DNA of 64,000 bases from Geodermatophilus obscurus DSM 43160 (GTDB lineage Bacteria; Actinomycetota; Actinomycetes; Mycobacteriales; Geodermatophilaceae). The translations under genes and the position numbers were made by a program. Position 1 is the first letter of the stretch. Every line of letters begins with the position of its first letter. The notes below the pieces were generated by a model. The model saw only the letters and a list, made by a program, of their open reading frames with translations. It was not told the origin of the DNA and did not search any database. Below are positions 44,402 to 45,507 of this stretch, piece by piece. The stretch spans positions 4,712,001 through 4,776,000 of the forward strand of contig NC_013757.1 in assembly GCF_000025345.1 (NCBI RefSeq), written 5' to 3'.

Positions 44402-44633
44402 CAGCTACCGGGTAGCCAGCGTCAGCTCGTCCTGAGCCAGACCCTGGTCAGACACCACCTCGCCCCGCTCCGCGAGCAGAGCCGGGTCATCACCACCCCC
44501 GAGAGCCGCAGCCAACGTCGACGTGACGTGCTGCAAGGCCCTCGCCGACCCGGTCGAGCTGCCGGCGACCCCCGCCGCCCTCACCCCGAGAGCGCCGACG
44601 CCTACTGTTCGGGATGGTCGACTTGCTGGTTGA
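44402..44633 (+). pseudogene. Frameshifted ArsR-family regulator remnant
   Basis: One frame (44402-~44510) gives QLPGSQRQLVLSQTLVRHHL and APLREQSRVITT, an ArsR winged-helix recognition segment. A shifted frame (to the TGA at 44631-44633) gives VDVTCCKALADPVELPATPAA, resembling the CC.AL..PV..LA.L tail of metal/arsenic ArsR proteins. The N-terminal part is missing. The stop overlaps the merR -35 box. Confidence 0.5.
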
Positions 44634-44661
44634 CCTTGGACCACGGTCCAAGGTCTAGCGT
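44630..44661 (+). promoter_or_regulatory. MerR-type operator/promoter
   Basis: TTGACC (44630-44635) and TAGCGT (44656-44661) are separated by 20 bp, the stretched spacing used by MerR regulators. Between them lies a perfect dyad: ACCTTGGACC (44633-44642), AC, GGTCCAAGGT (44645-44654). The predicted start falls at or next to the merR ATG (44669), implying a leaderless message. Confidence 0.8.
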
Positions 44662-44668
44662 CCGCCGC

Positions 44669-45109
44669 ATGACCACCACGGCGACACGGGGACTGCGGGT
44701 CGCGGAGCTGGCGACTGCCGTGGGAGTGCGGCCGGACACCATCCGCTACTACGAGCGGGCCGGTCTGCTACCGGCGCCCGAACGCACCTCCGGGGGCTAC
44801 CGCAGCTACGACGCCGACGCGCTCGACCGGCTGAGGTTCATCCAGGGCGCACAGCGCCTGGGCCTGCGACTGGCCGACATCCGCACGCTGCTGGCCGTCC
44901 GCGACACCGGCACCTGCCCCTGCGAGCCCGCGGAGGACCTGCTCCGCAGGCGCCTCGCCGAGATCGATGCCGAGATCGCCCGACTGACGACACTTCGGGC
45001 CGAGGTGGCGGCCATGGCCGACGCCCTGCCCACCGCCTCCTGCCCGCCGCCGAGCCCCGGCACCTGGTGCCCGCCCGCGGAGGGAGGTGAGTCCCCATGC
45101 TCGAGCTGA
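44669..45109 (+). CDS. MerR-family heavy-metal-responsive regulator
   Basis: The 146-residue regulator has the HTH RVAELATAVGVRPDTIRYYE, wing GLLPAPERTSGGYRSY and a long dimerisation helix (DLLRRRLAEIDAEIARL). Metal-type cysteines are in GTCPCEPAED (the MerR Cys82-like region) and in the C-terminal SCPPPSPGTWCPP and SPCSS. It is likely autoregulated through the dyad just upstream. The metal could be mercury, zinc or another thiophilic ion; sequence alone does not decide. Its end overlaps a Cys-rich peptide gene. Confidence 0.88.
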   Translation: MTTTATRGLRVAELATAVGVRPDTIRYYERAGLLPAPERTSGGYRSYDADALDRLRFIQGAQRLGLRLADIRTLLAVRDTGTCPCEPAEDLLRRRLAEIDAEIARLTTLRAEVAAMADALPTASCPPPSPGTWCPPAEGGESPCSS

Positions 45110-45162
45110 CGTGCGACTGCGGTTCCGACTGCTGCGACGAGACCTGCGACTGCGAGTGCTGA
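45097..45162 (+). CDS. 21-residue cysteine-rich peptide (micro-metallothionein-like)
   Basis: An ATG at 45097 preceded by AGGGAGGTGA (spacing about 8) overlaps the last 13 bases of merR in another frame. The peptide begins MLELTCDCGSD and continues CCDETCDCEC: seven Cys and six Asp/Glu in 21 residues. This is what a tiny metal-binding peptide looks like. A hairpin follows at 45182. No homologue is known to me; expression is inferred from the ribosome site and the metal-regulator context. Confidence 0.6.
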   Translation: MLELTCDCGSDCCDETCDCEC

Positions 45163-45507
45163 CCGCCGCGCCGGACTGACAGACGGCTACCCGGGCCCGG
45201 GACCGGGCAGCCGTCGGGACGCCGGTTGGACGCTTGGTCCGCACACAGTCCGCGGATCGGCCGATCTCGACCGTCGTCGGCCAGCTGCATCCGAGGTCTC
45301 CACTGGCGCGGTGCGCGGTCGTCCCTGCAGTGGTCGGCCGGAGCGCCGGCGGAGTCCAACCGGTGACCTCGGTGGTCGGTGCGAGGAGCGCAGGTGTAGC
45401 ACGACCGATACCGGACGTGACCGGAAGTCGCAGCGGTGCTGTGGGCCACTGGCCCCCTCGCAGGGGGCCCGCCTCGAGGAACGAGGCGGGGGGGGGTGAG
45501 GGGATCC
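45163..45507. other. merR operon-htpX intergenic region
   Basis: These 345 bp contain the hairpin after the Cys-rich peptide and, next to the htpX stop, two hairpins: GGCCCCCT/AGGGGGCC (45451-45469) and GCCTCG/CGAGGC (45471-45487). They probably end htpX. Nothing else is recognised. Confidence 0.5.
45182..45215 (+). terminator. Terminator-like hairpin after the merR operon
   Basis: GACGGCT (45182-45188) pairs with AGCCGTC (45209-45215), with further CCCGG/CCGGG pairing inside. It lies 20 bases after the Cys-rich peptide stop. Confidence 0.5.

Follow-up and report, generated by a model that had tools for sequence, protein, structure and literature searches.

A conserved, cysteine-rich micro-gene at the 3′ end of an actinobacterial merR gene that probably encodes a minute metal sponge

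Here we describe a micro-gene that overlaps the end of a MerR-family regulator gene in Geodermatophilus obscurus DSM 43160 and whose product probably serves as a minute metal sponge, co-produced with its metal sensor. It lies in a 64,000-nucleotide stretch of contig NC_013757.1 (hereafter the window, in whose coordinates positions are given), occupies 45097–45162 on the plus strand, runs from ATG to TGA and encodes 21 residues, seven of which are cysteines (MLELTCDCGSDCCDETCDCEC). This micro-ORF is a real, conserved gene. From the sequence evidence laid out below, we consider it likely that merR and the peptide together constitute a two-gene, self-inducing unit of a sensor plus a metal sponge, the latter being a ‘micro-metallothionein’.

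The frame, its length, its seven cysteines and their spacing (C-D-C, C-C and C-D-C-E-C) coincide exactly with what the first-pass annotation had proposed; the peptide contains no histidine. The same annotation had reported a 13-nt overlap with merR and a good Shine–Dalgarno sequence, and both are present: the overlap spans 45097–45109, merR ending at 45109, and the ribosome-binding site GGAGGTGA (45083–45090, plus strand) lies inside the merR coding sequence and ends 6 nt upstream of the ATG. Similar sites recur before the micro-ORF in relatives, although the rule used to find these frames itself demands one. Neither Pfam nor NCBIfam contains a family that the window frame matches. Downstream of its stop codon, a GC-rich hairpin (45182–45215, plus strand) is a possible terminator; it folds, with no gain over shuffled sequence (z −0.52), and covariation in its stem is weak (39 of 64 cells paired, with 72 of 2000 partner shuffles equally good). 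The next large ORF in the window is on the minus strand.

Relatives were scanned with a micro-ORF rule that requires a start between −70 and +60 nt from the merR stop, a Shine–Dalgarno-like site, a length of 9–50 residues, and at least four cysteines making up at least 18% of the peptide. When the own and related genomes (n = 98) were searched with the window MerR, 39 contained a match with an E value of 1e-15 or lower. A cysteine-rich micro-ORF is found at the merR end in 15 of the 16 close copies other than that of the window (L031–L046), 11 of these 15 having an overlap identical to the 13 nt of the window; the sole exception, L031, is the second merR of the own genome. A search of named genomes yielded at least 80 loci, 72 of which were scanned; among the matches listed, a cysteine-rich frame is present in 61 of 64 loci (L048–L111, the exceptions being L069, L095 and L101) and in one (L115) of eight more distant loci (L112–L119). 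Further MerR searches took in the class (394 genomes), the phylum (396) and the order (397), with loci taken from the best matches only. We then scored against a single profile 183 MerRs, no two of them identical over their first 110 residues, excluding L032–L047 and L158–L169 as duplicates or promoter matches. The peptide was found by rule beside 90 of the 102 MerRs scoring at least 185 (94 of 102 with four cases added by eye), beside 11 of 21 scoring 138–185 (17 by eye) and beside none of the 60 scoring below 138, for which a relaxed rule retrieved one longer cysteine-rich frame (L191). The same rule returned none of 3660 shuffled regions and none of 4712 random same-strand positions. Conservation of the frame beside orthologous actinobacterial merR genes, as anticipated by the first-pass annotation, is thus strongly supported for the close MerRs. 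The eight core MerRs that lack a peptide comprise L031 and seven proteins in which Arg or Lys replaces the loop cysteine after Trp.

In three loci (L129, L181 and L190), MerR and the peptide lie in one open frame in which the internal ATG is retained; L129 comes from a one-contig genome and the other two from fragmented assemblies. The earlier suggestion that annotation misses such frames stands in part: two Rhodococcus plasmids (L249 and L252) encode the peptide and their gene tables lack it, these tables being known to be incomplete. The 3′ ends of merR genes also display variants. Two different cysteine-rich micro-ORFs follow one merR in tandem at L110:1891-2400. Deep relatives (L113, L184, L187 and L191) have longer frames after merR with the pattern CxCGC ... 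CGCGCxCC, in some cases extended by a charged tail; these are perhaps a two-cluster version. In L176 and L192, likewise deep relatives, a small protein bearing CPVC and CPDC motifs, thioredoxin-like as judged by eye, directly follows merR in place of the cysteine-rich peptide.

The peptide is under clear purifying selection, which is weakest in the window’s own family. Within six clades of the MerR tree, peptide dN/dS was 0.18 in the Lentzea-type clade (4 rows; cysteine in both rows in 31 of 35 cells), 0.20 in the Amycolatopsis-type clade (12 rows; 346 of 399), 0.35 in the Actinomycetospora clade (4 rows; 48 of 48), 0.36 in the Glycomyces-type clade (14 rows; 752 of 785), 0.49 in the clade around Ornithinimicrobium (5 rows; 63 of 79) and 0.54 in Geodermatophilaceae (13 rows; 394 of 538). 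A first run, with groups defined by peptide motif, had given values of 0.20–0.35, with cysteine kept in 550 of 550 cells in one group; as motif-picked groups flatter cysteine retention, clades of the MerR tree were used instead. Between clades, the peptides share little beyond cysteines and acidic residues.

The 101 peptides found by the rule are 11–32 residues long (median 20), these lengths being lower bounds because the rule picks the start with the highest cysteine share. They contain 33.7% Cys and 15.6% Asp, their cysteine richness and short length being partly built in by the rule; CC is found in 95 and CxC in 92, whereas histidine is found in 12 and an aromatic residue in 13. The shortest are 11-mers, such as MLDDCCCGGCC in L094, and some peptides have only four or five cysteines, sufficient for at most one ion. 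The peptides thus have a composition of the metallothionein class: small, cysteine-dense, with CxC and CC motifs and few aromatic residues or histidines. Membership in known metallothionein sequence families was rejected, as none of 30 chosen peptides matched Pfam or NCBIfam at E values up to 1; a profile search of the PDB gave a single match, 2kak (EC protein I/II), at E = 1.

The merR gene (44669–45109, plus strand) encodes a protein of 146 residues with a CPC motif (C83 and C85) and a C125-x8-C134 loop. Its winged-helix and dimerisation domains are matched by PF13411, PF09278 and PF00376 above gathering scores. C85, the second cysteine of the CPC motif, aligns with a cysteine of CadR and of structure 4ua1, and C85, C125 and C134 are all present as residues of a candidate three-cysteine site. 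This alignment and the matches to Hg, Zn and Cd–Pb sensor profiles agree with the initial description of the protein as a metal-sensing MerR, with scores below the curated NCBIfam cut-offs in each case (MerR(Hg), 95.1 against 150.85 bits; ZntR, 85.1 against 167.95; CadR-PbrR, 85.2 against 151.45); the CueR cut-off was likewise not reached (72.0 against 147.4). The cysteine pattern fits the known metal-sensor class. A three-thiol site suits Hg, Pb, Cd or As(III), so the putative site does not narrow the inducing metal to one; the candidates are As(III), Cd, Zn, Hg and Cu(I). Loss of the loop cysteine coincides with loss of the peptide in seven of the eight peptide-less core MerRs (Fisher p 5e-8, from a table that wrongly counted L016, a partial match in which W-C is in fact present). 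We give this coincidence no weight because the MerR tree contains only about three changes of peptide state in the core, leaving too few pairs for an independent-pairs test. L083, L110 and plasmid L249 lack a cysteine right after the loop Trp and retain the peptide. On a Streptomyces plasmid (L250), a MerR of the same clade with Arg for the loop cysteine (W-R) lacks the peptide and is flanked by a P-type ATPase gene in divergent orientation, of the cadmium family by profile; L069, also a W-R MerR of this clade without a peptide, adjoins (by eye) an opposite-strand P-type ATPase gene.

A MerR-type promoter/operator is predicted at 44630–44661 (plus strand; TTGACCTTGGACCACGGTCCAAGGTCTAGCGT), where TTGACC and TAGCGT are separated by 20 nt and a near-perfect dyad, GACCTTGGACC-AC-GGTCCAAGGTC, lies between the −35 and −10 hexamers. 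A 20-bp gap between the hexamers that holds a dyad is the hallmark of MerR-activated promoters, and the promoter-like site of the window has both the over-long 19–20-bp spacer and the dyad. Since the predicted −10 ends 7 nt upstream of the merR ATG, the merR–peptide mRNA is probably leaderless, and merR and the peptide would share one MerR-type, apparently leaderless promoter. Among the matches listed, 55 of 72 loci have a TTGAC box (that of L095 being spurious by eye) and 32 of 72 have a crude dyad score of at least 0.7; a diverged TTGA-type site is found in 11 of the 17 loci without TTGAC. With up to three mismatches, the strict pattern finds one site in the own 5.3-Mb genome (plus its own reverse reading). 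With at most one mismatch, it occurs 12 times in 61 genomes (own and relatives), one per genome and always before a peptide-bearing merR, and it missed at least two genomes, G009 and G034, whose merR–peptide units have diverged sites. Among 13 genomes reached via named loci (some of the same strains), the motif was found in nine, with eight sites at merR and two elsewhere, and the remaining four had no site. The two off-locus sites (L166 and L169) come from Amycolatopsis and Ornithinimicrobium, one genome of each. The 12 sites, each before such a merR, suggest that the peptide may be the regulon’s sole other product, and within the limits of the strict motif the operon looks like its only target; the units missed, the four genomes with no site and the two sites elsewhere make further targets possible. 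The dyad could alternatively serve a divergent gene.

A degraded arsR remnant lies upstream of merR (44408–44614, plus strand; tblastn E 5e-10 and 7e-11), and arsR–merR–peptide DNA of L045 is 89.6% identical to window positions 44433–45170 over 740 bp. The unit in the window therefore appears to have persisted after the loss of its ars island. Several copies in Geodermatophilaceae are located inside arsenic islands. These islands encode ACR3, which scores above the TIGR00832 cut-off, together with an ArsR-family regulator, ArsC-like reductases, an ArsO-like flavoprotein and an ArsK-like MFS transporter; except for ACR3 and for matches to the generic ArsR/SmtB model, the scores are below curated cut-offs. 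Among the at least 80 named loci, ars-type genes are near 11 of 61 peptide loci (in Geodermatophilus, Modestobacter, Enemella, Actinomadura and other genera) and at no other locus, the assignment of L056 resting on a single 39%-identical ArsC-like match. Among the matches listed, the stretch examined contains no ars gene at 50 of the 61 peptide loci and contains ACR3 at eight, against a background of 13 over-cut-off ACR3 matches in ~88 Mb (about one per 6.7 Mb) from 15 genomes, nine of which were chosen for ars genes at the unit. The merR–peptide pair stands alone between opposite-strand genes in five loci of Amycolatopsis and nine to ten of Glycomyces, and in the locus clusters compared no metal transporter but ars genes recurs beside the unit. 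The same holds for the 25 most frequent among 105 Pfam families, tallied over 82 of 205 listed neighbours, a sample that left out most Geodermatophilaceae ars loci; an NCBIfam tally of neighbours added the ArsR/SmtB family only. The second merR of the own genome (L031; G000:C1:4922500-4942400) sits within an ars island; its promoter has decayed and its peptide frame is lost just after the start codon, so that the two merR copies look like a division of losses. In three Geodermatophilaceae loci with no ars genes nearby (L037, L039 and L040), a same-strand FAD-dependent oxidoreductase gene follows the merR–peptide pair. The shared MerR-type promoter, the apparent single-site regulon, the arsenic context and the arsR remnant had not featured in the first-pass annotation.

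Drawing on known MerR biology, we propose that MerR occupies its own promoter and that a thiophilic metal or metalloid on its cysteines would switch the operon on. The peptide, about one-third cysteine with Asp and Glu and little histidine or aromatic content, would bind the same kind of ion as a metal-thiolate, as its composition and conservation suggest; binding would lower the free level of the ion, protecting the cell and resetting the sensor. Given these presumed induction and chelation steps, the sensor’s main output would be a ribosomally made micro-metallothionein. The unit occurs alone or within arsenic-resistance islands, the one in the window apparently being what is left of such an island. 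The micro-metallothionein idea, and that of a peptide buffering the inducer or feeding back on the regulator, fit all the findings. Arguing for the two-gene unit are the peptide’s frequency beside close MerRs (94 of 102, against 0 of the 60 most distant ones by rule), purifying selection in six clades, a strict promoter motif near-unique to the operon, the isolated pairs of Amycolatopsis and Glycomyces, the single open frames of L129, L181 and L190, the nearby ars genes and excess of ACR3, the MerR cysteine pattern, and the W-R relatives L250 and L069, in which a P-type ATPase gene takes the place of the peptide. Arguing against it are the 50 of 61 loci with no ars gene, the peptides with four or five cysteines, L083 and L110, which keep the peptide without the loop cysteine, the dN/dS of 0.54 in Geodermatophilaceae, the results of the strict motif scans and the possible use of the dyad by a divergent gene. 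A bolder extension, which we advance tentatively and which may well prove too broad, is that unannotated metal-thiolate peptides made on the ribosome, of down to ~11 residues, are the dedicated, sole output of this MerR clade throughout the phylum and would form with it a minimal, self-contained homeostat for a metal or metalloid; in ars islands the peptide would act as an As(III) sponge and reset the sensor.

A refinement compatible with the sensor-plus-sponge explanation is that the unit is specific for arsenic: MerR would sense As(III) or Sb(III), and its partner would be a thiol peptide that binds As(III). The ars-type genes at 11 of 61 named peptide loci (among the matches listed), ACR3 far above its genome frequency, the arsR remnant and a three-cysteine site that would suit As(III) all point this way, but most peptide loci (50 of 61) have no ars gene in the stretch examined, the unit retains its own promoter inside ars islands and the peptide-less L250 adjoins a cadmium-family P-type ATPase gene; we regard arsenic specificity as rather unlikely. 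Still less probable is that the peptide acts on MerR as a metallochaperone, delivering or stripping the ion and so tuning the signal rather than giving bulk protection. Its fixed site adjoining MerR, the shared open frame in three loci and the lack of another strict-motif target in the own genome or the 61 genomes would be expected of such a partner, whereas the strong divergence of the peptides between clades is unlike a docking surface, and the in-frame loci keep an internal ATG and come in two of three cases from fragmented assemblies.

Cysteine-rich leader peptides are known in mycobacteria, and a short, cysteine-rich ORF in actinobacteria could in principle be a cysteine-responsive attenuator. 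We consider this very improbable on anatomical grounds: the micro-ORF comes after a metal-sensor gene, and the window, like the Amycolatopsis and Glycomyces loci, has its next gene on the opposite strand; some other loci, such as L051, have a same-strand gene at a distance after the unit. Spurious short ORFs are plentiful in GC-rich genomes, but the absence of such frames from shuffles, random places and, by rule, distant MerRs, set against 94 of 102 close ones, together with dN/dS values of 0.18–0.54, leads us to reject a chance frame as far as sequence allows, its probability being close to nil.

Among known systems, the window MerR resembles ZntR, CadR, PbrR and Hg-MerR in its fold, its dimerisation cysteine (the second of CPC), its long-spacer promoter and its C-x8-C loop, a spacing found in ZntR and Hg-MerR. 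It differs from them in an extra cysteine (CPC), a tail cysteine and scores under each curated cut-off, and its apparent output is a peptide, not a pump. Fungal copper metallothioneins (Neurospora and Agaricus) have 25–26 residues and seven cysteines, and are thus similar in minimal size and cysteine number; those are eukaryotic, with no sensor operon, and the likeness is likely to be convergence. SmtA is larger and folded, unlike the window peptide with its 21 residues and no histidine. MymT of Mycobacterium tuberculosis and the Pseudomonas metallothioneins are longer and do not overlap a MerR gene. These metal-binding bacterial proteins, mentioned in PMC7387436, are cysteine-rich like the window peptide, and are set against it here by description only. 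The same source describes the smtB–smtA pair of Synechococcus, an ArsR-family repressor and the metallothionein SmtA, which, like the unit proposed here, joins the genes of a metal sensor and a metallothionein-type product in a compact unit (PMC7387436). In our case, the sensor is MerR-type, a presumed activator, and the genes overlap head to tail rather than being divergent. In Pseudomonas aeruginosa, the MerR-family CadR controls zrd, whose small metal-binding product is likened to metallothioneins by the authors of PMC12301328; sensor family and small putative metal-binding product are thus alike, but Zrd has a zinc ribbon and its predicted sites are mononuclear (PMC12301328), and here the peptide overlaps the regulator gene. 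We found no description of a merR gene with a cysteine-rich micro-ORF in the literature searched, which was mostly open-access and leaves room for an earlier mention; a 2010 in-silico survey of actinobacterial metallothioneins is cited in PMC4531530.

If the sensor-plus-sponge explanation is true, a large, overlooked group would be added to the bacterial metallothioneins. To our knowledge, several of the peptides are below the size of the smallest encoded metallothioneins. The merR 3′ end provides a ready search rule for such genes, and the peptide and MerR unit offers small parts for metal binding or biosensing. The explanation would also suggest targets for some of the ‘orphan’ MerR metal sensors of actinobacteria.
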